From: Nitratireductor luteus
Lineage (GTDB): Bacteria > Pseudomonadota > Alphaproteobacteria > Rhizobiales > Rhizobiaceae
Assembly (NCBI RefSeq): GCF_026162365.1
Contig: NZ_JAOANW010000004.1
Location: 1 to 64,000 of the forward strand
Length of the DNA: 64,000 bases
Direction: 5' to 3'
Shown here piece by piece: positions 2,316 through 53,652 of the stretch; the first letter of the stretch is position 1, and each line of letters starts with the position of its first letter. The translations under genes and the position numbers were made by a program. The notes beneath the pieces are model-generated. The model did not search any database. It was not told the DNA's origin and saw only the letters and a program-made list of their open reading frames with translations.

Positions 2316-3599
2316 TCAGACGATCCCGCCGCCGCTGCCCTCTACTGCGGGACGGCTGTCGGTGATCCTTTTGCGGTAGGAACTGGCCCGGTAGGTGGCG
2401 ACCGGGTCGACCGCGCCGCCGGCCTTCAGCCGAGCGCTGGCAAGAATGGGCTCGACATCGGTGCGGAAGGCTTTCTTGAGCGTCTCGCTCGCCATCAAGG
2501 CATCATTCGCCTCCTGCGCTCTGATGAGCGCCTGTCGGTCGACCAGCAGCGCCTGCGCATAGGCGCGCCGCACCTCGCTGGCTGAAACCATCAGGCTTTC
2601 GATCGGGTCCGTCACGTTGTGGCTCTGGTCGAGCATATGGGCCGGCTGGAAACCCGGCGCGTCGCGCCGTTCCGCCTCGACCAGCTCGTTGAAGACCAGG
2701 AACAGCCGGTAGGGATCGATCGAGCCGGCGTCGAGATCGTCGTCGCCATATTTGGAATCGTTGAAGTGAAAGCCGCCCAGCTTGCCGAACTGGATCAACC
2801 GCGAGACGATCATTTCGATATTCACGTTCGGTGCGTGATGGCCGAGATCGACGAGGCAGTAGGCTTTCGGCCCAAGCTCCTTGGCGATGAGGTAATTCGT
2901 GCCCCAGTCCTGCACGACCGTCGAATAGAAGGCCGGTTCGTAGATCTTGTGCTCGGTGAAGACGCGCCAGTCCTCGGGCAGGGCGGCATAGACGGTCTTC
3001 ATCGAGCTCAGGTAGCGCTCGAATGCCCGGGCCAAATCGCTCTGACCGGGGAAATTCGAACCGTCGCCGATCCACACCGTCAAGGCCTTGGAGCCGATCG
3101 CCTCGCCGATCTCGATACATTCGAGATTGTGCTCGATGGCCTGCTGACGCGTCGCGGCGTCCGTGTGCGACAGCGAGCCGAATTTGTAGGAATGACGCTG
3201 GCCCGGCTGATCCTGAAACGTGTTGGAGTTGATGGCGTCGAAGCCCAGGCCGAAACGGGACGCTGCTTCCTTCAGGGACTGCGGGTCGGCCCTGTCCCAG
3301 GGGATGTGCAGCGAAATCGTCGGCGTGGCGCGCGTCAGTTGATGGATGACGGCGCAGTCCTCGATCTTGTCGAATATGTTGCGCGGCTCGCCGGGACCGG
3401 GAAAGCGCGCGAAGCGCGTGCCCCCAGTGCCTACGCCCCAGGAGGGAATGGCGATGCCGAAGGCGGCGGCCTTGTCACGGATCTCATCGATCGACACGCC
3501 GTGTCGGTCGAGCTTCTCACCGAGCGCGGCGTAATCGCGATCGAGGCCGGTCAGTCGGGCGGCGTTCTCGCGCTCACTGCTGTCGATGATGTCCTGCAT
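2316..3599 (-). CDS. rhaI: L-rhamnose isomerase, RhaI type (L-rhamnose catabolism isomerase)
   Basis: About 427 residues. It converts L-rhamnose to L-rhamnulose in the cytoplasm, the first catabolic step after uptake. The (beta/alpha)8 metal-binding signature segments are visible: WGVGTGGTRFARFPG, HIPWDRAD, FTEHKIYEPAF, LVDLGHHAPN and GFHFNDSKYGDDDLDAGS. It is the Pseudomonas/rhizobial type, not E. coli RhaA. The ATG at 3599 sits 7 bp after the rhaD stop, so the two are co-transcribed; a longer in-frame start at 3644 would overlap rhaD. Confidence 0.95.
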   Translation of the reverse strand: MQDIIDSSERENAARLTGLDRDYAALGEKLDRHGVSIDEIRDKAAAFGIAIPSWGVGTGGTRFARFPGPGEPRNIFDKIEDCAVIHQLTRATPTISLHIPWDRADPQSLKEAASRFGLGFDAINSNTFQDQPGQRHSYKFGSLSHTDAATRQQAIEHNLECIEIGEAIGSKALTVWIGDGSNFPGQSDLARAFERYLSSMKTVYAALPEDWRVFTEHKIYEPAFYSTVVQDWGTNYLIAKELGPKAYCLVDLGHHAPNVNIEMIVSRLIQFGKLGGFHFNDSKYGDDDLDAGSIDPYRLFLVFNELVEAERRDAPGFQPAHMLDQSHNVTDPIESLMVSASEVRRAYAQALLVDRQALIRAQEANDALMASETLKKAFRTDVEPILASARLKAGGAVDPVATYRASSYRKRITDSRPAVEGSGGGIV

Positions 3600-3606
3600 G
3601 GTTCCC

Positions 3607-5709
3607 TCAGCGCGTGAAAGATTGTGCATTGCCGGCATCGACATTCACGATGTTGCCGGTCGATTTCGCCGCCATGTCGGAAACGAAGAAATAGATGGCC
3701 TCGGCGATGTCTTCAGGAAGGACGCTGCGCTTGAGCAGCGAGCGCTTGCGGTAGTGCTCCTCCAGCTCGTCCGGGCTCATATTATAGGCCGCCGCACGCT
3801 GTTCGCGCCACTCGCTCGACCAGATTTTCGAGCCGCGCAGCACTGCGTCCGGATTGACCGTGTTGACGCGAATGCCGAATTCGGCGCCCTCCAGAGCAAG
3901 GCAACGGGCGAGGTGGATTTCGGCAGCCTTGGCCGTGCAATAGGCGGCGGCGTTGGGCGAGGCTGCAAGCCCGTTCTTTGAGGCGACAAAGACGATCGAG
4001 CCGCCATTGGCCTGCGCTTTCATGAGACGGAATCCCTCGCGCGCGACGAGGAAATAGCCCGTCGACAGGATATCCATGTTGCGGTTCCACATGGCAAGAT
4101 CAGTCTCGTCGATGGGAGCCGACGAGGAAATTCCGGCATTGGAGACGAGAATGTCGAGCCCGCCATATTCGCGCGCCATCGCCGTGAACGCGTCGGCCGT
4201 TTCGCTCTCCGATGTGACATCAAGCCTGACGGTGCGCACCACATCCGCCGAATGCCGGCCGGAAAGCTCGGCCTCGGCGGCTTCGAGGGCGGTCTCGTCG
4301 ATATCGGCCAGCATCACGCAGGCGCCGTCCGCCAGAAGCCGCTCGGCCGTCGCCTTGCCGATGCCGCCGGCGCCGCCGGTGATCAGCGCCACCCTGCCGG
4401 CCAGCGGGCGGGGCTTCGGCATGCGCTGCAGCTTGGCCTCCTCCAGCACCCAGTATTCGATGTCGAAGGCTTCCTTCTCCGGCAGTCCCATATAGGATGA
4501 GACGCTGGAGGCGCCGCGCATGACATTGATGGCGTTGACGTAGAACTCAGCGGAAATTCGCGCAGTCGCCTTGTCCTTGGCGAAAGTCAGCATGCCGACG
4601 CCGGGTACCAGATAGACCACCGCATTGGGGTCGCGCATCGGCGGGCTGTCGGGTTCCTTGCAGCGTTCATAATAGGCGGCGTGGCCTTGGCGATAGGCCT
4701 CCAGCGCCGCGTCGAGCCTGGCGACGGTCTTGTCGATATCCGGCTTTTCCGGATCGAAATCGATGACGAGCGGGCTGATCTTGGTGCGCAGGAAATGATC
4801 CGGGCAACTGGTGCCGAGCGCCGCCAGCTTCTCCATGTCGCGCGCGGCGATGAATTCCAGCACCGCAGGCTGATCGTCGAAATGTCCCACCTTGAACTGT
4901 GACGACGAAATCTTGCCGCGGATGATCGGCATCAGCCGCGCCGCTATGGCCTGGCGCTCGGCCTCAGCCAGCGTTTTTCGCACGGGTCCGCCAAAGGCGG
5001 GCTTGCCTTCGCTCTCGGCCGCGAACCATTCGATGGCGCGGTTGATGATTTCTACGGTCGTCTCATAGCATTCGCGCGCCGTGTCGCCCCAGGTGAAGAG
5101 CCCGTGGCTTTCCAGCACGACGCCCCTGGCATCGGGGTTATCCTGGCAGAATTTCTCCAGCCACAGGCCGAGCTCGAAGCCGGGCCGTTTCCATGGCAGC
5201 CACCCGATCTCACTGCCGTAGATTTTTCGGGTCAGTTCCCTGCTGTCCTTCGCCGCGGCGATGGCGATGACGGCGTCGGGATGCATGTGGTCGACATGCT
5301 TCTTCGGCACGAAGGCGTGCAGCGGCGTGTCGATGGAGGCGGCGCGGGGATTGAGGTTGAAGGTGCAGTGCGGCAGGTAGCCGACCATCTCGTCTTCGTG
5401 CTCGACCCCGCGGTAGAGCCCTTTCAGCGCCTGCAGCTTGTCCATATAGAGCGTGGCGAAACCGTCCATGCCAATGGTGCCGACATCGCCGCCGGATCCC
5501 TTCACCCACAGCACTTCGACCTCGTCTCCGATGAGCGGGTCCCTCTCCATCGCCTTTGCCGAGGTGTTGCCGCCGCCGTAATTGGTGATGCGCTTGTCGG
5601 AGCCGAGCAGGTTGGAGCGGTACAGAAGACGCTCCGGCTCGCTCATGGACTGCGCCTTCGCCTCGTCCCAAAGGTTGGCAAGCCGCGTGCCGTCGCGCGT
5701 ATCGAGCAT
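3607..5709 (-). CDS. rhaD: Bifunctional rhamnulose-1-phosphate aldolase / short-chain dehydrogenase
   Basis: About 700 residues in two parts. The N-terminal class II aldolase domain (roughly 1-400) has a His-rich metal site near residues 138-143 (KKHVDHMH) and a GGGNTS phosphate-binding segment near 45-50. The C-terminal SDR domain starts near 430 with TGGAGGIGKA and has a YCTAK catalytic Tyr/Lys pair. The first half splits L-rhamnulose-1-phosphate to DHAP and L-lactaldehyde; the second half probably oxidises lactaldehyde. This fusion is the known rhizobial RhaD form. The ATG at 5709 has a GAGGAATTC-type site upstream. It heads the minus-strand rhaDI operon and is divergent from rhaR. Confidence 0.95.
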   Translation of the reverse strand: MLDTRDGTRLANLWDEAKAQSMSEPERLLYRSNLLGSDKRITNYGGGNTSAKAMERDPLIGDEVEVLWVKGSGGDVGTIGMDGFATLYMDKLQALKGLYRGVEHEDEMVGYLPHCTFNLNPRAASIDTPLHAFVPKKHVDHMHPDAVIAIAAAKDSRELTRKIYGSEIGWLPWKRPGFELGLWLEKFCQDNPDARGVVLESHGLFTWGDTARECYETTVEIINRAIEWFAAESEGKPAFGGPVRKTLAEAERQAIAARLMPIIRGKISSSQFKVGHFDDQPAVLEFIAARDMEKLAALGTSCPDHFLRTKISPLVIDFDPEKPDIDKTVARLDAALEAYRQGHAAYYERCKEPDSPPMRDPNAVVYLVPGVGMLTFAKDKATARISAEFYVNAINVMRGASSVSSYMGLPEKEAFDIEYWVLEEAKLQRMPKPRPLAGRVALITGGAGGIGKATAERLLADGACVMLADIDETALEAAEAELSGRHSADVVRTVRLDVTSESETADAFTAMAREYGGLDILVSNAGISSSAPIDETDLAMWNRNMDILSTGYFLVAREGFRLMKAQANGGSIVFVASKNGLAASPNAAAYCTAKAAEIHLARCLALEGAEFGIRVNTVNPDAVLRGSKIWSSEWREQRAAAYNMSPDELEEHYRKRSLLKRSVLPEDIAEAIYFFVSDMAAKSTGNIVNVDAGNAQSFTR

Positions 5710-5780
5710 GAATTCCTCCCTTGCAGCACCCGTTGAAGGCGCACATCCTTTCCCGCAAGGTCTCAAACGGGGCCTGCAAT

Positions 5781-5799
5781 GTCAATCAGAAACGATCAA
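5781..5799 (+). promoter_or_regulatory. Putative RhaR operator, site 1
   Basis: GTCAATCAGAAACGATCAA lies in the rhaD-rhaR intergenic region. Its inverted near-copy is 52 bp away, centre to centre, at 5833-5851. DeoR-family repressors bind paired sites of this kind; assignment to RhaR is inference from position. Confidence 0.5.
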
Positions 5800-5832
5800 C
5801 TACGATCATTGTGCGTTGCAATATGCGCTAAA

Positions 5833-5851
5833 TTGATCAGAAATGATTGAC
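5833..5851 (-). promoter_or_regulatory. Putative RhaR operator, site 2 (inverted)
   Basis: TTGATCAGAAATGATTGAC is the reverse complement of site 1 apart from the central four bases and one arm base, keeping GTCAATCA-N4-YGATCAA. It ends 43 bp before the rhaR ATG, so occupation would block rhaR and the downstream transport operon. Confidence 0.5.
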
Positions 5852-5894
5852 AATGCGCGTTTCCAATGCGCTAATCGGCACACAGGGAGGAAGC

Positions 5895-6704
5895 ATGCAC
5901 GAGAAAGAGCGCCATCGGATCATCTTGTCCGCGGTCCAGGAAAAGCCGGTCGTGACCGTGCAGGAGATCGTGGAGATGACGAGCTCGTCGGAAGCCACGG
6001 TCCGCCGCGACATCGCCGCCTTGCATGTGCAGCAGCGGCTGAGGCGCGTGCGCGGCGGGGCGGAGGCGCTGACGCCGCCGCAGGTGATCGGTCTTGCCGG
6101 GCGGCCCTTCCGCGTCAACGAGACGATGCACGCCGGCATGAAGCGCGCCATCGCGCAGAAGGCGGTCGAACTGTGCACCGATGGCGAGCCGATCATCATC
6201 AATGGCGGCACGACGACCTTTCAGATGGTGCACTATTTGGCGGCGCGGCGCATGCCCATTCTCACCAACTCATTCGCCATCGCCGATCATCTTCTCAAAC
6301 ATTCGAAGAACACGGTGGTGCTGCCCGGCGGCACGATCTACCGCGAACAGAACATTGTCCTTTCGCCCTTCGACAACGACGTGACGCGCAATTTCTATGC
6401 AAAGCGCATGTTCATGGGCGCGCAAGGGCTGGGGCCGCTCGGCCTCATGGAAGGCGATCCGCTTCTGATCCAGGCCGAGCAGAAACTGATCGACCAGGCC
6501 GACGAACTGATCGTTCTGGTCGATTCCACGAAATTCCGTCAGCGCTCGAGCCTCATCCTGTGCGGGCTGGAGCGCATTTCGACCGTCATCACCGATGACG
6601 GCGTGGAGGAGCGCGAGGCGAGAATGCTCGAAGAAGCGGGCGTCCGGCTGATCGTCGCTCCGATACCGGAAAAGGACAGGGAGGTATCTTCGCTGCCGGC
6701 GTGA
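5895..6704 (+). CDS. rhaR: DeoR-family regulator of rhamnose catabolism
   Basis: A 269-residue DeoR-type regulator. The N-terminal helix-turn-helix is seen in HRIILSAVQEKPVVTVQEIVE and SSSEATVRRDIAAL, followed by a sugar-phosphate-isomerase-like sensor domain (NGGTTTFQMV, GGTIYREQN). It is divergent from rhaDI and leads the rhaSTPQK genes, the arrangement of the Rhizobium leguminosarum rha locus, where the DeoR protein represses until rhamnose is metabolised. The ATG at 5895 has GGGAGGAAGC upstream and fits the family start better than the in-frame ATG at 5847. Confidence 0.9.
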   Translation: MHEKERHRIILSAVQEKPVVTVQEIVEMTSSSEATVRRDIAALHVQQRLRRVRGGAEALTPPQVIGLAGRPFRVNETMHAGMKRAIAQKAVELCTDGEPIIINGGTTTFQMVHYLAARRMPILTNSFAIADHLLKHSKNTVVLPGGTIYREQNIVLSPFDNDVTRNFYAKRMFMGAQGLGPLGLMEGDPLLIQAEQKLIDQADELIVLVDSTKFRQRSSLILCGLERISTVITDDGVEEREARMLEEAGVRLIVAPIPEKDREVSSLPA

Positions 6705-6762: not shown

Positions 6763-7761
6763 ATGAGACTTTTCGGGAAACTAATGGCGGCGGCTGCCAT
6801 GTCCGTCGCATTCACGCTCAATCCGGCGCAGGCGCAGGATGACGTCAAGATCGCGCTGGTGGTCAAGGCGCTCGGCATCGGCTTCTTCGAAGCGGCCAAT
6901 GAAGGCGCCAAGGAGGCCGCCGAGGAACTGGGCGGCGTCGAAATCATCTATACCGGCCCCACCGACACCACGGCGGAGGGCCAGATCGAGGTCATCAACT
7001 CGCTGATCGCCCAGAATGTCGACGCCATCGCTGTCTCGGCCAACGACCGGGACGCACTGGTGCCGACGCTCAAGAAGGCGATGCAGCGCGGCATCACGGT
7101 GATCTCCTGGGATTCGGGCGTGGCGCCGGAAGGCCGGCAGATGCACCTCAACCCTTCGTCCAACGCGCTGATCGGTGAAATGTGCGTCAAGATGGCCGCC
7201 GAGCACCTGCCGGAAGGCGGTGGCGACGTTGCCATCCTGTCGGCTTCCGCGACGGCCACCAACCAGAACATCTGGATCGAGGAGATGAAGAAGGTCCTGC
7301 CGAACTATCCGGGCGTCAATATCGTCGCCACGGTCTATGGCGACGATCTGGCCGACAAATCCTATCGCGAGGCGCAGGGCCTCATCCAGTCCTATCCGGA
7401 CCTGAAGGCGATCATCGCCCCCACCTCGGTCGGCATCGTCGCGGCCGCGCAGGCCGTCACCGATGCCGGCAAGGCGGGCGAGATCAACGTCACCGGACTC
7501 GGCCTGCCGTCGGAAATGGCCGGCCACGTAAAGTCCGGCGCGTCGAAAAGCTTCGCCATCTGGAATCCCATCGACCTTGGATATTCGGCCACCATGATCG
7601 CCTACAATCTGGCGACCGAAAAGGCCACGGCCGAACCGGGCGCCGAAATCCCTATGGGCCGCATAGGTTCGGTGAAGCTCGACGACAACAATGAGGGCGC
7701 AATGGCCGAACCCTTCGTCTACGACGCGTCGAACATCGACGACTTCAAGGACATATTCTGA
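6763..7761 (+). CDS. rhaS: Rhamnose ABC transporter, periplasmic substrate-binding protein
   Basis: About 332 residues with a signal peptide (MAAAAMSVAFTLNPAQAQ, cut after AQA) and a periplasmic-binding type I fold: TGPTDTTAEGQIEVINSL, ISWDSGVAPEG and QNIWIEEM are typical of rhamnose/autoinducer-2 family sugar binders. It delivers L-rhamnose to the RhaPQT complex. The ATG at 6763 has GGGAGGA upstream; a TTG one codon earlier is also in frame. A strong hairpin follows the stop, which would favour excess production of the binding protein over the membrane parts. Confidence 0.93.
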   Translation: MRLFGKLMAAAAMSVAFTLNPAQAQDDVKIALVVKALGIGFFEAANEGAKEAAEELGGVEIIYTGPTDTTAEGQIEVINSLIAQNVDAIAVSANDRDALVPTLKKAMQRGITVISWDSGVAPEGRQMHLNPSSNALIGEMCVKMAAEHLPEGGGDVAILSASATATNQNIWIEEMKKVLPNYPGVNIVATVYGDDLADKSYREAQGLIQSYPDLKAIIAPTSVGIVAAAQAVTDAGKAGEINVTGLGLPSEMAGHVKSGASKSFAIWNPIDLGYSATMIAYNLATEKATAEPGAEIPMGRIGSVKLDDNNEGAMAEPFVYDASNIDDFKDIF

Positions 7762-46899: not shown

Positions 46900-47000
46900 G
46901 TGACCGCGCCATTGAACAATCCACCCGGAACTCTGGCTCTGCCATTGCCTTGAACAATGGTTTCCGAAGATCTGCCGTATCCGTCATACAAATCGCCGGT

Positions 47001-47588
47001 TCAGCGATCATGCAAACCTTTTCCGCCGAGAATTTTCGGCGTGGATTTTTCAATCCTCGACACCCGGGTTCTGGACTGCTTGGGCTGGGAAAAATAAAGG
47101 ATGTATCCCCTTCGCCGCCCTGGGGTCAGACCTTCGAAAGCCGTCTTTAGGTCCGGATCCTCGTCCAGCTTGCTCATGAGTTCCGCGGGAAGTTCGAGAT
47201 CGTCCTTCGGGAACTTCACCTTCAGGCCAGCTTTCTCCACGTTGATGGCTTCATGGATATAATCTTTCAGGGTGGCTTCCATCCCGACTATTTCCGCGAC
47301 GCTTGAGAATCTTATCTTTCGCATCGACCGTGAGTTTTCCCCGGGTGCGACGAGGAGGCCCTCGGCATCTTTCAACAAGGCACCTTTGAAGAAGGCAAGT
47401 GCGCAGTATTCCTTGAGCCCCCAGAGGGCGGCCACATTACCGTTCTGAAACGTGTAGCAGGGAGAGCGCCATTTGAAATCTTCCGTCACAGGGCAGTCGA
47501 GAAGGATTGCTCTCAATGCCTGCAGTTCACCCCGCCACTTTTTTGCTCTGGTGAAGAATGCTTCGATCTCGGGATTCACCTCATTCAT
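47001..47588 (-). CDS. YdeI/OmpD-associated family protein (DUF1801)
   Basis: 195 residues. The N-terminal DUF1801 fold is seen in WRGELQALRAILLDCPVTEDFKWRSPCYTF and CALAFFKGALLKD; the C-terminus LTPGRRRGYILYFSQPKQSRTRVSRIEK is the YdeI-type helical end. It is linked to peptide resistance in other bacteria, with no firm mechanism. The ATG at 47588 has GGAG before it; the longer frame to 47705 lacks support. Confidence 0.85.
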   Translation of the reverse strand: MNEVNPEIEAFFTRAKKWRGELQALRAILLDCPVTEDFKWRSPCYTFQNGNVAALWGLKEYCALAFFKGALLKDAEGLLVAPGENSRSMRKIRFSSVAEIVGMEATLKDYIHEAINVEKAGLKVKFPKDDLELPAELMSKLDEDPDLKTAFEGLTPGRRRGYILYFSQPKQSRTRVSRIEKSTPKILGGKGLHDR

Positions 47589-47970
47589 CTCCGGCTCCCA
47601 TGACGTTGTCCGTTTCGATTGTTCGTCATCGCCCTTCTCGAAATGCTTTAGTGTTTTAAATGTAAAGGCGGTTCCGCAAAATGCCACATGACAAGCCCAC
47701 AGCATTCCACCCGGAAGTGGCCGTCTGAAAACGCTTGTCTGCCCGGCTGCGGGATAATGGCAGCAACCTTTCCGGACCGATTGCGGTAATCTTTTCTACG
47801 GCGCTCTCCCTCATGCGGCCTTTGACAGCCACGCTTTGACACTGCGATAGCGAGAGCGAAGGCCCTCCACCACATCACGTCAGAATGAGCGAAGTGGCTT
47901 TCCCCCATTTGGTCAGGTACCTCCAATTCCCAATTCCGCGTATTCTGCTTTTTCGCCGCGGGAGGTAAGT
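47589..47970. other. Intergenic, 382 bp
   Basis: Divergent upstream region of the YdeI-type and LuxR-type genes. No further gene is supported, and no clear repeat was recognised. Confidence 0.5.
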
Positions 47971-49080
47971 GTGACATCGCTCGATGGAGACGAAAGCAGC
48001 CTGCTGCGTCTTTATGATGCGGCCGTCTCACCGGACCTGTGGCCGCAGGTCTTGCAGGAGCTTGCCAACCAAGCGGATGCCGTCGGTTGCTGCATTGCCA
48101 TCGACAATTTGAAGGAAACGCTCATCGCGCCCCCGATGTCTCCGGAGCTCGTCGAGCCGCTTTCGGATTTCGTCCAGAGCGGCTGGTACCGGCGCGATCT
48201 CCGCGGCCGCAGAGGATGGCCGCTTATCAAGGCCGGGCGCCGCGTTCTCATCGAGCACGACGTTTCCACCGAAGAGGAAAGGCGGTGCGGAAGCTACCAC
48301 AATGAGTGGCTGCGGCCCTGGGATCTGCCGTGGTGGTCGGCCATCGGCTTCCCGTGCGGGGGAGGCCTGTTCGCGCTCGCGCTGTTGAGAAACTCGCAAC
48401 AAGAAGCGTTCACGCGCGCCGAAGCCGCAAAACTTTCAAGATGGCGCCCGCATCTCAAGCGTGCCATCTCGCTGGCGCAGCTTTGGTCGCGACGCCAGGC
48501 TGATTCGGTGCTGGCAACCTTGCAACGTCTCGATCGTGCCGCCTTCCTTCTCAACGCTCAGGGCCGCGTCAGCCAATTGAATGCGCCTGCCGAAGTGCTG
48601 CTGGGCCGCTCCCTCGAGCTTCGCCTTGGCAGGCTGAGGGCGGTCCACCGAAAGGACGATGCAGCCTTGCAAGGCTTCCTTGCGGCCGCGCTCGCCCCGC
48701 CCTTTCCCCGCGGTACAGCCGACGAGGAGCCAATTCTGATTGGGAGCGAGGGCCGCAGACGTCTCATCGTCGAGGCAATGCCGACCGTCGGTCTGCTCCA
48801 GGACGTATTCGCCGGGACGCGGGCATTGCTTCTCGTGACAGACCTTGATCGCCGCGCGGTGCTGCCGGAGGAGAGACTGCGCAAGCTCTTCAACCTGACA
48901 GCATCCGAAGCCGCCGTAGCGGCGAGAATTGCCGCGGGGAGCGACCTGCGGAGAATTGCGGAGTCGTTGGAAATCGCAACGGGGACGGCGCGGAACCACC
49001 TCAAGGCAATCTTTTCGAAGACCGGCACGCACCGGCAGAGTGAGCTGGTGGCGCTTGTTCAGCGGATCCCGCTCGGCTGA
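47971..49080 (+). CDS. LuxR-type helix-turn-helix regulator
   Basis: 369 residues. The first about 300 contain PAS/GAF-like sensor sequence without metal or heme motifs (SQLNAPAEVLLGRSL is PAS-like). The C-terminal GerE domain is LFNLTASEAAVAARIAAGSDLRRIAESLEIATGTARNHLKAIFSKTGTHRQSELV. The GTG at 47971 has GGGAGGTAAGT upstream. The element at 49137, 57 bases after its stop, is repeated in front of another gene and could be its target; this is speculation. Confidence 0.88.
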   Translation: MTSLDGDESSLLRLYDAAVSPDLWPQVLQELANQADAVGCCIAIDNLKETLIAPPMSPELVEPLSDFVQSGWYRRDLRGRRGWPLIKAGRRVLIEHDVSTEEERRCGSYHNEWLRPWDLPWWSAIGFPCGGGLFALALLRNSQQEAFTRAEAAKLSRWRPHLKRAISLAQLWSRRQADSVLATLQRLDRAAFLLNAQGRVSQLNAPAEVLLGRSLELRLGRLRAVHRKDDAALQGFLAAALAPPFPRGTADEEPILIGSEGRRRLIVEAMPTVGLLQDVFAGTRALLLVTDLDRRAVLPEERLRKLFNLTASEAAVAARIAAGSDLRRIAESLEIATGTARNHLKAIFSKTGTHRQSELVALVQRIPLG

Positions 49081-49136
49081 GCCTGTAGCTGAAGCGATCG
49101 ACAACCATTCGAAACCGCAAAATCCCGCGAAGAGTG

Positions 49137-49187
49137 TAGCCCATTTGGGACAGGCGGCTGACGCGCTGGGGCGCGATACTCGGATGC
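49137..49187 (+). repeat. 51-bp element, copy A (upstream of PG-binding gene)
   Basis: 45 of 51 positions match the reverse complement of 51376-51426. It begins TAGCCCATTTGGGACA, which holds a CCCA-TT-TGGG dyad, and ends CTCGGATGC. It sits 75 bp before the ATG at 49263, and copy B sits 59 bp before the ATG at 51316, in the same direction relative to each gene. It could be a shared promoter/operator or an inverted repeat framing a mobile module. Confidence 0.75.
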
Positions 49188-49262
49188 AGCCGGCAATGCA
49201 GTACGCGGTCAACGCCCGACTGCATTTAGGCCGATCGAACGACAACGCAGGAGGACAAGGAT

Positions 49263-49676
49263 ATGCGCAGGCTGATCTTCCTCGTGGCGGCAATTGTGGT
49301 CGCAGACACGCTACCCGTCGGTGCGCAATCCGATGATGGCATGAAGCTTCAGCGCTGCGTTTGGGCGTGCCTCGCCCGCTCGTCAGGTAACGAAGACCCG
49401 GCCTATCACACTTGCGTGGAGAACGTTTGCGTCGCCAGGACGCCTCCGGCTTCTCCGCGTGGTCAATCAGCTGTTCCGCGCGCTGAACAGCCCGATCGGG
49501 CCACCGTCAGTTTCGTGCAGCGACGCCTTGCTGATCTTGGATTTGATCCCGGACCAATTGACGGGATCTATGGCCGAAAAACTCGGGCGGCGGTGGAGGC
49601 GTTCCGCGCTTCTCGGCGTCTTGGCGAGGCCAGCGGCATTGACGAGGATCTTCTGGCGGTCCTCCGATCCGAATGA
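49263..49676 (+). CDS. Secreted peptidoglycan-binding domain protein
   Basis: 137 residues: signal peptide (cut after VGA), a Cys-bearing middle (RCVWACLARSS, CVENVCVA; possible two disulfides) and a C-terminal PG_binding_1 domain (VSFVQRRLADLGFDPGPIDGIYGRKTRAAVEAFRASRRLG). It likely docks on the cell wall. The stop overlaps the start of the next gene (ATGA), so the two are coupled. GGAGGACAAGGAT precedes the ATG. Confidence 0.85.
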   Translation: MRRLIFLVAAIVVADTLPVGAQSDDGMKLQRCVWACLARSSGNEDPAYHTCVENVCVARTPPASPRGQSAVPRAEQPDRATVSFVQRRLADLGFDPGPIDGIYGRKTRAAVEAFRASRRLGEASGIDEDLLAVLRSE

Positions 49677-50704
49677 AGAACGACGCTGACCGGCATACGC
49701 ACCGGAGGGAGGCAAGTGGACCAATGGAAAGTTCTGCAGAACGACACGGTTCTTCAGCTGGCGCGGAGAGTTGGGTTCGGCGGATTGGAAGCGTACTCGT
49801 TACGATTGCTTTTCTCGCGGCTCCGGCAGCCGCGCAGGATCTTGACGCCGGTCTCGCGGATTTTGCGAACAAGCGGTACAGCAGGGCTTTTAAGACGCTC
49901 GAACCGCTGTCGGCGACCGGCGTGCAGGAGGCGCAGCTGGCCGTGGGCAAGATGCTGCTGTTAGGCAAAGGCACGGAGCAGGATTCAGCACGCGGCATCG
50001 AGATGCTCGACTCCTTGGCCACAGAGAGTCCTGAGGCGGCCTTCATTCTCGGGGAATACTATTTCGAAAAGCGGCAGGGTCTTCGCGCGATGCCCTATCT
50101 CGAACGGGCCGCAGCAGCGGGTGACGGCGCAGCCATGGAGATGATCGGGGAACTCTATCGCGGCGGCCGCGACATAGACTATTCCGAGGCAGACATGGCT
50201 CGGTGGTTTGCCAAGGCCATTGAATCAGGCTCGGTGAGCCCCTGGACCGCGATGTTGAGCGGTCTCACTGCTCTCAAGCGGAAGAACTACGAACTCGCCG
50301 TCGAGCATTTCGGTATTGCCGCCGATAAAGGAAATCTGCGCGCCGTGGCTGAACTCGGGCGACTTTACTATGAGGGTCTCGGCACCTCTCGCGACCTGTC
50401 CGAGGCTCACCGACGCCTGCTGCCCGCAGCCGCCGCTCACTACGCACTCGGCGAACTCTATCTCGGGGACGTGTTTGTGGCGATGGGCCAGCCGATCCGG
50501 GGACTGGAGTGCTACGGTGCTGCGCTGATTGATGGCAAGCGCGAAGAGAATCCGGAAGTCATGAAAATCGCTTGGCAGAAGCTTCTCCCATTTGGAATTC
50601 TCGGAAATGCGGGAGTCAGGGTAGAGAAGCCGGACGGGCCCTGCGATTTCGAGCCGAGCGAGCTGATGTTGATGCTTGTGGAATCCTACTTCTCGGGCAA
50701 GTAG
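49673..50704 (+). CDS. Secreted Sel1/TPR-like repeat protein
   Basis: Up to 343 residues. A basic leader and signal peptide (VLVTIAFLAAPAAAQ) precede several Sel1-like units such as AQLAVGKMLLLGKGTEQDSARGIEML, AAMEMIGELYRGGRDIDYSEADMARWF and AVAELGRLYYEGLGTSRDLSEAHRRL. The ATG at 49673 overlaps the previous stop; the ATG at 49724, after GGAGG, gives a more normal signal peptide. Probably a periplasmic scaffold for envelope complexes. It converges on the next gene with a 3-bp gap. Confidence 0.82.
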   Translation: MKNDADRHTHRREASGPMESSAERHGSSAGAESWVRRIGSVLVTIAFLAAPAAAQDLDAGLADFANKRYSRAFKTLEPLSATGVQEAQLAVGKMLLLGKGTEQDSARGIEMLDSLATESPEAAFILGEYYFEKRQGLRAMPYLERAAAAGDGAAMEMIGELYRGGRDIDYSEADMARWFAKAIESGSVSPWTAMLSGLTALKRKNYELAVEHFGIAADKGNLRAVAELGRLYYEGLGTSRDLSEAHRRLLPAAAAHYALGELYLGDVFVAMGQPIRGLECYGAALIDGKREENPEVMKIAWQKLLPFGILGNAGVRVEKPDGPCDFEPSELMLMLVESYFSGK

Positions 50705-50707
50705 CGT

Positions 50708-51316
50708 TTACCGCCGCACATTGTTGATATAGTCGAAGGCCTTGTCGATGAGCGCACTTGCCTCTTCGGATTCGTCGCAATTGGACAGCCCGTCGATGAT
50801 GATCGAGGCTAGGAAAACGTGTTCGAAGAATTTGTCCCGCTGCTCATCGTAAAGTGCAAGGAAGGCGGCCGGGGGCTCGACCGCGCTGCCATCCCCGCCG
50901 AAACTGAGCTGGCCATGCGACCGAAGAAGTTCCTCGCAGCCGGAGCGCCTACCGAGCCGCGTATCGAGGCAGTAGACCCAAAACTCCTCGTGAGTCGGGA
51001 CGAAGCCAACGCGCTCCTTGTAAAGACGGCCATGGTGGACCCGGGCCAGCCAGTCAGCGTCAGCGAACTTCATCTGATAGGCTGGATCGTGACCTTCAGC
51101 TTCATAGTACGCCCACATCCGGTCATACTCGTCCTGCAGGTCCTTCTCGCTGGGATTGGGTATCGACCAGTAGGCGGACCGGGAGGATTCCAAGCGATCC
51201 GCCAAGCTTGAATACTCCTGCTTGTCCCAGTAGTCGCAGCCCGCCAACGTGGCAGCGTCGGCGTTCCAGGTAACGAGCAATACAATGGCGAGCCCATGAG
51301 CAGTCGTCCGAAGCAT
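50708..51316 (-). CDS. Secreted protein of unknown function
   Basis: 202 residues: signal peptide TAHGLAIVLLVTWNADAATL, then an acidic, Trp/Tyr-rich helical domain (YDRMWAYYEAEGHDPAYQMKF, HEEFWVYCLDTRLGR) with four Cys outside the signal. No family recognised. A 51-bp element upstream is shared in inverted orientation with the PG-binding gene at 49263, suggesting common control. Confidence 0.65.
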   Translation of the reverse strand: MLRTTAHGLAIVLLVTWNADAATLAGCDYWDKQEYSSLADRLESSRSAYWSIPNPSEKDLQDEYDRMWAYYEAEGHDPAYQMKFADADWLARVHHGRLYKERVGFVPTHEEFWVYCLDTRLGRRSGCEELLRSHGQLSFGGDGSAVEPPAAFLALYDEQRDKFFEHVFLASIIIDGLSNCDESEEASALIDKAFDYINNVRR

Positions 51317-51375
51317 GGAACCCTCCTTCAGTCACGTATCAATGCTGCATAATATTGGTGCCTATGGCCACGATC

Positions 51376-51426
51376 GCATCCGAGCATCGCACGCCAGCTT
51401 GTCAGCCGCATGTCCCAAATGGGCTA
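51376..51426 (-). repeat. 51-bp element, copy B (upstream of secreted-protein gene)
   Basis: Reverse complement of copy A with six differences. With copy A it encloses three envelope-protein genes (49263-51316) in a 2.3-kb module. No transposase lies inside, so a simple insertion sequence is not supported. Confidence 0.75.
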
Positions 51427-51654
51427 GGGCGCTGCAACATCGTATTTCGTTGACGGTTTGACGAGGGACGGGGCATGTCCGAGGCTCCCGCTCGCTGCAA
51501 GAACTACCGCTTTCCGACCGTTTTTGTGATTGGAATTGCATTCAACGAGAGGCTTCGAGCACGACAAAACGCGTCGCGCTAAATCCCAAAAAACCGCAAG
51601 TATAAACTGGAGTTAGACGAACAACAGATACGGTCCCGCTGCGGCGCGGTTAAG

Positions 51655-51716
51655 TACGTCGTCAGGTGGCGACCGATCAAGCCGCGACCTCCAATGATCA
51701 AGACGCTGTTGACCGC
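51655..51716 (-). pseudogene. Remnant of an SDR/epimerase N-terminus
   Basis: On the minus strand this reads AVNSVLIIGGRGLIGRHLTTY, a clear GGxGxxG nucleotide-binding start of an extended short-chain dehydrogenase. It is followed by unrelated residues and a stop near 51583. No start codon or ribosome site is clear. It is probably a leftover of a deleted gene; the rest of 51317-51782 shows no other gene. Confidence 0.55.
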
Positions 51717-51782
51717 ACAACTAAGGGGGGCGGGAGGATTCCGCCGCAGATGCTGCGGATGCAGACCAGGTTTCTGGTGGTG

Positions 51783-52703
51783 TCATTGCCGCTCGAAGGA
51801 ACAAGCATAGATGCCGCGATAGCCTATGGCTGGTCCTGGTGTGAGGGTGAGGACGAGATCGGCATTCCAGCGTCTCATTGCGCCATCGATTGTCGGCTCA
51901 TCGTCAGCTACGTGCCGGACGGATACCCTGGCTCCTTCCGTCGTTGTTGTCAGGCCGTCAGCCAGATCTTCAATGTCGACGGACGCCGCAAAGCGGAAGG
52001 GTATGAGCGTACCGTTGAGTTTCGTCACACCCTGGGCGATGCCTTCCTCGCCTTCTGGCGCCCGTGCAACGAAGACGGGGTTACTCGCGCCCGTATAGGA
52101 GAACTCGCAGCCTGAGCCCGGGCCGAGAACGTCATCGATCTCGGCCTGGCTCATCGGGGACGGATCAAGCTCTGCGAGCATTGTCTGGTTCATTGCTTCG
52201 GAAACGGAACCGGTCTTCGGAGGCCCGTCCTCGTAGATGTCGCTCGTTTCGCCGCCGCGCGCCAGATCGGCGATGAGGTAGCGCATCTCCGAAATCTCGC
52301 GCCGCTGTGCCTCTATGATTTCGTGGGCGAGCTTGCGAACGCGTGGGTCGGCGATCTGCGCGCGCTCGCTCGTCATGATTGCGATAGAATGGTGCGGGAT
52401 CATTGCACGCATGTAGCTTGTTTGGCTGACGGTGGCCTGGCTGCGTACCAGCCAGAGCGAACCGGCGATCACAAGTGCGCTGCCGGCAAAGATGGTGACG
52501 TTCGTGATCATGCTGGGATACATACTCATCATGTACCCGAGCATGATGATCGCCATGCAGCCGCCCATGAGCAGCGCCATGTAGACACGTGTTTCGCTGA
52601 AGAAGGCGTGCTCCCAGGCATACGTATTGAGATACATGAGGCCGAACATCACCACGGTGGACGTAGCGATCATCGCCGCGAAGCGCAGATAGGACATAGG
52701 CAT
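51783..52703 (-). CDS. DUF305-domain membrane protein
   Basis: 306 residues. Two to four hydrophobic N-terminal segments (FAAMIATSTVVMFGLMYLNTY, VYMALLMGGCMAIIMLGYMMS, MITNVTIFAGSALVIAGSLWL) are followed by the DUF305 part with SYMRAMIPHHSIAIMTSERAQIADPRVRKLAHEIIEAQRREISEM; its His and Met residues suggest metal binding. A C-terminal domain of about 120 residues is unassigned. The ATG at 52703 has GGGAG upstream; the frame is open to 53039. DUF305 proteins are common in copper clusters, but none is next to it. Confidence 0.85.
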   Translation of the reverse strand: MPMSYLRFAAMIATSTVVMFGLMYLNTYAWEHAFFSETRVYMALLMGGCMAIIMLGYMMSMYPSMITNVTIFAGSALVIAGSLWLVRSQATVSQTSYMRAMIPHHSIAIMTSERAQIADPRVRKLAHEIIEAQRREISEMRYLIADLARGGETSDIYEDGPPKTGSVSEAMNQTMLAELDPSPMSQAEIDDVLGPGSGCEFSYTGASNPVFVARAPEGEEGIAQGVTKLNGTLIPFRFAASVDIEDLADGLTTTTEGARVSVRHVADDEPTIDGAMRRWNADLVLTLTPGPAIGYRGIYACSFERQ

Positions 52704-53004
52704 GATCTCCCTTTGGTCGCCGGCGGAGAGGCTGTTGCACAACGACCAGATACCCATGCTGTTCCAGCAGGCGGGTGTTCCGGCCGGCCCCTGGCGGCTG
52801 AAAAGGACAAGTTCAATGATAGCTACTATGAATAGGGTCGAGACGCCGCCGCCGCTCCATTCCAGAAGACGTGGCTGACGCGTCGTCTTGTTCTTTAAGC
52901 TTATCTTGCTGCCGGGAGGGGATGCCAACGGCCTGCGCCGGGTAGTTACTGAACAATGGGTCGCTTTGGCTGTTTGGAGGATAATTGCATATAGGGACCG
53001 CCGC

Positions 53005-53652
53005 ATGTGGGAATTCATCAAGGACAACCATGGCGCCATAAGCGCGGTTACCGCTGTGCTGACGATGATGATCTGGGTGCTCTACTTCCAACTGCTGCTG
53101 AACAGCTATCGCCACCGCATCCGCCCGAAGATCAACATCAACAGGGGCGGCGGGCGGTCAAGCAACTCCAGATGCGTAATAACCAATATGAGCGCCGAGG
53201 CGGTTTACGTGGATGCCGTCATACTGACGTTCAAGGGTGGTGAAAAGCAGCGCATCTGCTCTCTGAGCGATCTGGATGTTTCGCCATCGGCGGACAAAGA
53301 TCTTCGTCAACAGCTGCTGCAAGGCCCGCTGGCAAGCGGCGAATTCATCGACATCGGTTCGTTTGACGAACTGATCGAGCACGCCGGAGAGGGAGATACA
53401 ATCGCCAGCGACACCAAAAGCATCGAGGTGATGGTAGTGGGCACGTACACTGCCGACGACGGTTTAATAGCAGCAGAGCGCCGATACGAACTTTCTCGTA
53501 GAGATGGACAACGCCTTCTGCAGCCGGTGGCGTTTTCCACCCGTCAGGTACGGTCTCGCTGGGAACGGCGAAAAATCGAACAACTCATGCTCGAGTGGTA
53601 TGGGAATGAAGCGAGCGCCCACTTTCCCCTACCGCAACGGAAGCAAATATGA
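53005..53652 (+). CDS. Single-span membrane protein of unknown function
   Basis: 215 residues with one membrane segment near 12-30 (AISAVTAVLTMMIWVLYFQLLL) and a beta-rich soluble part with NMSAEAVYVDAVILTFKGG. No family recognised. The ATG at 53005 is chosen because the frame upstream is unlike a protein start. The 301-bp gap from the DUF305 gene (52704-53004) otherwise shows no gene. Confidence 0.6.
   Translation: MWEFIKDNHGAISAVTAVLTMMIWVLYFQLLLNSYRHRIRPKININRGGGRSSNSRCVITNMSAEAVYVDAVILTFKGGEKQRICSLSDLDVSPSADKDLRQQLLQGPLASGEFIDIGSFDELIEHAGEGDTIASDTKSIEVMVVGTYTADDGLIAAERRYELSRRDGQRLLQPVAFSTRQVRSRWERRKIEQLMLEWYGNEASAHFPLPQRKQI

Follow-up and report, generated by a model that had tools for sequence, protein, structure and literature searches.

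This locus raises the question of why two inverted copies of a 51-bp element enclose three genes for secreted or repeat proteins, next to the gene for a LuxR-type regulator. An earlier note on this DNA had offered two answers: the element could be the binding region of one regulator in front of two units, or the copies could be the ends of a non-autonomous mobile module. The window analysed here is a stretch of 64,000 nucleotides from the genome of Nitratireductor luteus (contig NZ_JAOANW010000004.1, positions 1 to 64,000), in which the following features are of interest.

47971-49080, + strand: gene for a LuxR-type regulator of 369 aa with a GAF/autoinducer-domain-like N-terminus, a weak PAS match and a C-terminal GerE domain; the proposed binder
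49137-49187, + strand: copy A of the 51-bp element, 45/51 identical to copy B; would comprise the operator, spacer, -10 hexamer and approximate +1 of the proposed promoter
49137-49152, + strand: operator A, TAGCCCATTTGGGACA, inverted heptamers in 7-2-7 arrangement; an invariant island in comparison with C. intermedius, one of two exact matches in the genome
49175-49180, + strand: proposed -10 hexamer GATACT of copy A, operator positions 39-44; would put the operator centre at -42.5
49263-49676, + strand: gene for a secreted peptidoglycan (PG)-binding protein (PF01471, E=2e-10), putative first target of operator A; C. intermedius has a 69% identical homolog after the same operator
49673-50704, + strand: gene for a Sel1-repeat protein (PF08238, E=1e-9), its start overlapping the preceding stop (ATGA)
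50708-51316, - strand: gene for a 202-aa secreted protein of no known family, converging on the Sel1 gene; putative target of operator B
51376-51426, - strand: copy B of the 51-bp element, 45/51 identical to copy A
51383-51388, - strand: proposed -10 hexamer GATGCT of copy B, at the same place as in copy A
51411-51426, - strand: operator B, TAGCCCATTTGGGACA, an exact copy of operator A

The repeat itself is as had been described: copy A and the reverse complement of copy B share 45 of 51 bases without gaps, and beyond the element the similarity ends abruptly on both sides. The second-best 51-bp match in the window reaches 29/51 for copy A and 26/51 for copy B. Given the base composition, the probability of at least 45 matches in 51 is 2.7e-20, or about 1e-10 after multiplication by all position pairs. 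Both copies point inward to a gene; the distance from the element to the ATG is 75 bp for copy A (PG-binding gene, 49263) and 59 bp for copy B (202-aa gene, 51316, minus strand), which agrees with the reported range of 59-75 bp. The LuxR gene lies upstream of copy A, as claimed, its end being 56 bp away instead of 57.

The two units converge, the PG-binding and Sel1 genes being read rightward and the 202-aa gene leftward. The protein identities proposed earlier held, as PG_binding_1, Sel1 and GerE domains were found in the respective proteins; the 202-aa protein matched nothing in Pfam up to E=1, and no family in NCBIfam or PHROGs. The third-position GC of the 202-aa gene (0.73) is similar to that of its neighbours, and the structural model of its product is poor (mean pLDDT 49.5). 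Judged by eye, the five target genes, including the PG-binding and 202-aa genes, have starts resembling signal peptides; in the Sel1 protein such a start would need a long leader or a later start. The PG-binding proteins of the window and of C. intermedius (L021, 4392-7070) share a cysteine-bearing N-terminal segment, LQRCVWACLARSSGNEDPAYHxCVENVC; the frame of the latter runs on into a long repeat region, and PG_binding_1 is its only Pfam match.

The 51-bp element had been treated as a unit, and this is true of the A/B repeat and not of the relatives, in which the whole 51 bp is not conserved. Relatives keep the first 16-18 bp of the element (TAGCCCATTTGGGACA, two inverted heptamers with a 2-base gap) and, 22 bp beyond the operator, a -10-like GCnAnnnT. 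At A and B the operator reads TAGCCCA-TT-TGGGACA, the two heptamers being imperfect at the outer bases. Copies A and B share 17/18 bases in the operator part and 28/33 in the remainder; C. intermedius agrees with copy B at 18/18 positions of the operator part and then at 12/33, including the -10-like columns. As only 12/33 non-operator bases agree with C. intermedius, the 51-bp A/B similarity probably reflects a more recent duplication of the whole promoter in the N. luteus lineage. An 81-bp query of 61 genomes, including the own genome and that of C. intermedius, gave a match in the own genome only; C. intermedius was missed because conservation is limited to 16-18 bp plus a few columns.

Similar sites are found beside LuxR orthologs in two relatives. 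In C. intermedius (same genus, genome G009) the ortholog is 73% identical and is followed by 64 bp, the site TAGCCCATTTGGGACATG and the homologous PG-binding gene; in the alignment, GTAGCCCATTTGGGACA forms an invariant island within an otherwise diverged spacer. In Ensifer sp. LCM 4579 (locus L031, a part of contig C7 of genome G084) the ortholog is 59% identical, and three site variants occur within 3.5 kb, all matching TANYCYAAATGRGAC when read toward their genes. Two of them, lacking the full CCAWWTGG core, form a tandem pair, 23 bp apart, between the LuxR ortholog and a divergent secreted-type gene, while the third lies 3.5 kb from the LuxR start, ahead of a gene for an 809-aa repeat protein that is similar to the target protein of C. 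intermedius in the C-terminal part of the latter (E 3e-40). A transposase-like gene, named by eye, is situated between the tandem operators and the third site (L031, 2743-4176). An origin of the Ensifer repeats as IS ends was considered and rejected, since a secreted-type gene follows every site and the sites flank the transposase-like gene. Finally, in genome G034, which belongs to another genus, a 21-bp sequence GTAGCCCATTTGGGACATGTG identical to that of C. intermedius (L085, position 8978; G034:C5:38977-38992) lies between a gene for a GerE-alpha/beta-hydrolase fusion, a different LuxR type, and a gene that by eye is transporter-like and not one for a secreted protein. The sites share an orientation toward their gene, the nearest ones being 94-160 bp upstream of the likely start.

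LuxR orthologs are rare. A search of genome contigs yielded five loci (the own genome possibly left out), and at E<=1e-45 the query matched in 13/394 family genomes and 7/397 order genomes, most matches being 29-40% identical. Around the remote orthologs from two Bosea and Azorhizobium (45-50% identical) a clear site was not detected at distances up to 6 kb; the best candidate, in Bosea L032, scores 13.8, the seven matrix sites 23.5-29.1, and unrelated places in the window at most 13.2. The earlier note had named a lack of further copies, of conservation in relatives and of a binding protein as what would speak against its reading; the first was indeed observed, as the whole genome (4.9 Mb, 45 contigs), when searched, yielded no third copy of the 51-bp element besides the two at this locus, and the second was not, the site being conserved.

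These comparisons bear on the second of the two answers, by which a non-autonomous mobile module, with the three genes as its cargo, would have the copies as its inverted ends. Such a module would account for the inverted orientation and the sharp similarity edges, and also for the 202-aa gene, which of 16 genus genomes was found in the own one alone. However, a target-site repeat beyond 1 bp is absent at the outer ends, only two copies were found in the genome, the sites are single and unpaired in C. intermedius and G034 and number three on the same strand in Ensifer, and what is conserved consists of a palindrome and a -10-like hexamer ahead of genes. Pfam revealed no transposase among eight neighbouring proteins, two of which had no family. 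A mobile module thus seems highly improbable. The right neighbour, a DUF305 gene, has homologs in 10 of the 16 genus genomes, including the own one, the others being at most 72% identical over a part. In the plasmid collection no match was found to the 202-aa protein (E<=1e-3) or to the LuxR-type protein (E<=1e-30). A small local two-promoter control circuit, of a kind already known, is well supported by the comparative data.

The sites are confined to few places. Whole-genome scans with the pattern TANYCYAWWTGRGACM, which was fitted to the very sites it finds, so that the result consists in the absence of other matches, gave two matches in the own genome (G000), one in C. intermedius, three in Ensifer and one in G034; all fall at the known operator loci, and the reversed control gave none in any of the four genomes. 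The exact 16-mer was found in 2/297 family genomes (own and G034) and in 1/397 order genomes (own); these two samples overlap, the C. intermedius genome is outside the family sample, and variants of the Ensifer type are missed by the exact 16-mer. With up to two mismatches, the own genome contains 74 matches (two with none and five with one) vs. 115 in the reversed control; as the matches are fewer than in the control, a wider regulon cannot be claimed. A literature search with CCCATTTGGG and CCCAAATGGG gave, among the matches listed, no title about such an operator. At 47905-47912, some 60 bp upstream of the LuxR gene, CCATTTGG occurs inside CCCCCATTTGGTCAG and may be a weak autoregulatory site.

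As linkage alone is no proof of binding, the sites could also be real operators of another, unlinked regulator, the LuxR gene being merely a neighbour or itself a target; the identical G034 site adjoining the unlike LuxR-hydrolase gene would fit this explanation. It is opposed by the position of the TANYCYAWWTGRGACM matches, which lie at most 3.5 kb from a LuxR-type gene in all four genomes, by the absence of the exact 16-mer from all but two of the 297 family genomes and all but one of the 397 order genomes (with the same blindness to Ensifer-type variants), and by the joint variation of operator flanks and recognition helix described below. We regard an unlinked regulator as quite unlikely.

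The bases beyond the operator suggest a promoter layout. Five operators are nearest to a secreted-protein gene: A, B, that of C. intermedius, the third Ensifer site and the proximal Ensifer tandem site. At operator positions 39-44 they contain GATACT, GATGCT, CATTCT, TAGAGT and CATGCT, respectively; among columns 17-75 only G32, G37, C38, A40 and T44 are invariant, with or without B, and A40 and T44 are the second and the last base of a -10 hexamer. The chance of A...T in all four independent random sequences is 2e-5 near this place and 1e-4 anywhere in 59 columns, these columns, like the TANYCYAWWTGRGACM pattern and the palindrome criterion used below, having been picked after the sites were seen. 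At the corresponding place the hexamer is absent from the distal Ensifer tandem site and from G034, the latter lacking A40. With the hexamer placed at -12 to -7, the operator centre would be at -42.5 and the 51-bp element would end at about +1.

This arrangement is reminiscent of NarL of E. coli. According to PMC4549865, a NarL dimer binds two inverted heptamers separated by two bases, its 7-2-7 sites spanning -40 to -49 at napF and -38 to -47 at yeaR; the placement proposed here resembles that at these two promoters, and the operator core resembles an engineered NarL site, TACCCCTAAAGGGGTA, from the same source. We propose an activator because both the geometry and the place of the operator match the NarL sites in the two promoters. 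Alternatively, the LuxR protein could bind and repress both units, or use another promoter layout. NarL itself, according to the same source, represses at the 7-2-7 site of frdA (PMC4549865), and a simple sigma-70 consensus scan found no promoter at A or B. The spacing between operator and GCnAnnnT, in turn, is fixed in 5/5 gene-proximal operators, as in promoters activated from about -42.5, and no Rfam family was found within 47000-53500. The -10 columns in the gene-proximal operators lead us to weigh repression or another layout lower, as possible rather than probable.

At the C-terminus of the regulator, the GerE match (PF00196, E=3.3e-7) scores 30.3 bits vs. a cutoff of 23.5. The PAS match in the middle part (E=0.015) is below the cutoff, and up to E=1 Pfam gave only GerE, PAS and Sigma70_r4_2, with no autoinducer-binding domain (PF03472). 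In the structural model (mean pLDDT 73.7, much of residues 71-121 being of low confidence), residues 305-367 superpose on the DNA-bound NarL chain 1je8 (Z 11.5, rmsd 1.6, 63 aligned). Residues from about 1 to 175 match GAF domains and the ligand domain of LasR (2uv0; Z 11.6, rmsd 3.6, 150 aligned); phytochrome GAF domains fit equally well, so that LasR and GAF tie at Z 11-12 over a region that includes the weakly modelled residues 71-121. In comparison with NarL, the regulator thus shares the inverted heptamers with a two-base spacer and, by its model, the GerE fold on DNA; however, it has no detected receiver domain but a GAF-like domain and a weak PAS match instead, and its sites were found only at its own locus. 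With LasR, RhlR and LuxR solos it has in common a sensor domain combined with GerE and, in the model, the likeness to the LasR ligand domain; it differs from these in having no Pfam autoinducer-domain match, an extra PAS-like domain and an N-terminus that phytochrome GAF domains fit equally.

Paralogs of the regulator give a further view of the operator. We examined 22 wide loci with LuxR homologs (leaving out L011, L015, L016, L018, L019 and L098-L101), and six of them (L023 of the own genome, L024, L026, L074, L083, L084) contain genes for a TbpB/fHbp-like lipoprotein and Slam beside the LuxR gene, as identified by Pfam on the L024 proteins and by tblastn in the remaining loci. In all six a CCAWWTGG palindrome, symmetric at no fewer than seven of ten pairs, precedes the lipoprotein gene; a palindrome of such symmetry is present in 1/16 other LuxR loci (L073; Fisher p 9e-5), the six loci amounting to about three independent cases, as L024, L026 and L074, and likewise L023 and L084, are near relatives. 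The TA-CCCA operators, symmetric at only 5-6 of ten pairs, are below this criterion (at least 7) and were not counted there. The 22 loci contain seven palindromes vs. a mean of 1.61 and a maximum of 6 in Markov-generated sequences, and 41 other loci (162,516 bases) contain one; the argument rests on the position before the gene and not on the count.

Some further observations concern these loci. In the own genome (L023, G000:C41:374000-386000) the second LuxR gene, about 34-35% identical, belongs to a lipoprotein-Slam-LuxR operon (genes at 2660-6339), with the palindrome CACCTACCAAATGGGAGCTG at about 2681-2700, before the lipoprotein gene. L073 has a partial second LuxR match. In L076, CGTAACCCATTTGGGTGTTT (7379-7398) comes right after the gene of another LuxR paralog and could be a further operator type. 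In the short LuxR-homolog loci, CCCANNTGGG occurs twice in L011, once in L018 and not at all in L015, L016 and L019.

The operators differ together with the recognition helix. The window, C. intermedius and Ensifer share the helix RNHLK, and RN is also found in the otherwise unlike G034 protein. All eight LuxR proteins encoded at the six Slam loci have RQRLK instead, which does not occur in any of the 16 remaining proteins listed. In the three remote orthologs that have no clear site, the letter at this place is D, G or H. That helix and operator differ jointly is, experiments aside, the strongest indication that the LuxR protein acts as the binder.

Taken together, the C. intermedius and Ensifer sites, the restriction of the pattern and the operators of the paralogs give good support to the first answer of the earlier note, one regulator's binding region before two units. 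Each 51-bp element is probably a duplicated promoter, extending from the operator to about +1 and bound by a dimer of the adjacent LuxR-type protein, which most likely activates the two convergent secreted-protein units. The GAF-like and PAS-like domains would sense a signal; the operator, an inverted 7-2-7 pair in the manner of NarL sites, would be occupied by two dimerised GerE domains, its centre being at -42.5 relative to the proposed start; and the bound protein would most likely activate the PG-binding and Sel1 unit as well as the 202-aa unit.

The Slam surface-lipoprotein operons are similar to the window locus in that paralogous LuxR genes end or adjoin them and a related palindrome is present, and different in their markers, Slam and lipoprotein, which have no match at the window locus. 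A literature search, judged by titles, found no publication on LuxR control of Slam operons. These alphaproteobacteria may have a clade of GAF-like/PAS/GerE regulators that specialise in neighbouring genes whose products are secreted or lie at the surface (PG-binding proteins, repeat proteins, Slam-exported lipoproteins), via 7-2-7 CCAWWTGG operators, the outer bases of which follow the recognition helix (RN: T-A-x-CCCA; RQR: CTmCCA). The targets would then be exchanged, with regulator, operator and promoter spacing left unchanged; we consider such a clade about as likely as not.

The analysis offers an uncharacterised type of LuxR regulator a proposed operator, promoter layout and two target units. 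It would also tie related regulators, including those of the Slam lipoprotein operons, to the control of displayed or secreted proteins, and the correlation with the recognition helix may make their operators predictable. The interest of the locus lies chiefly in the wider regulator family that it indicates.
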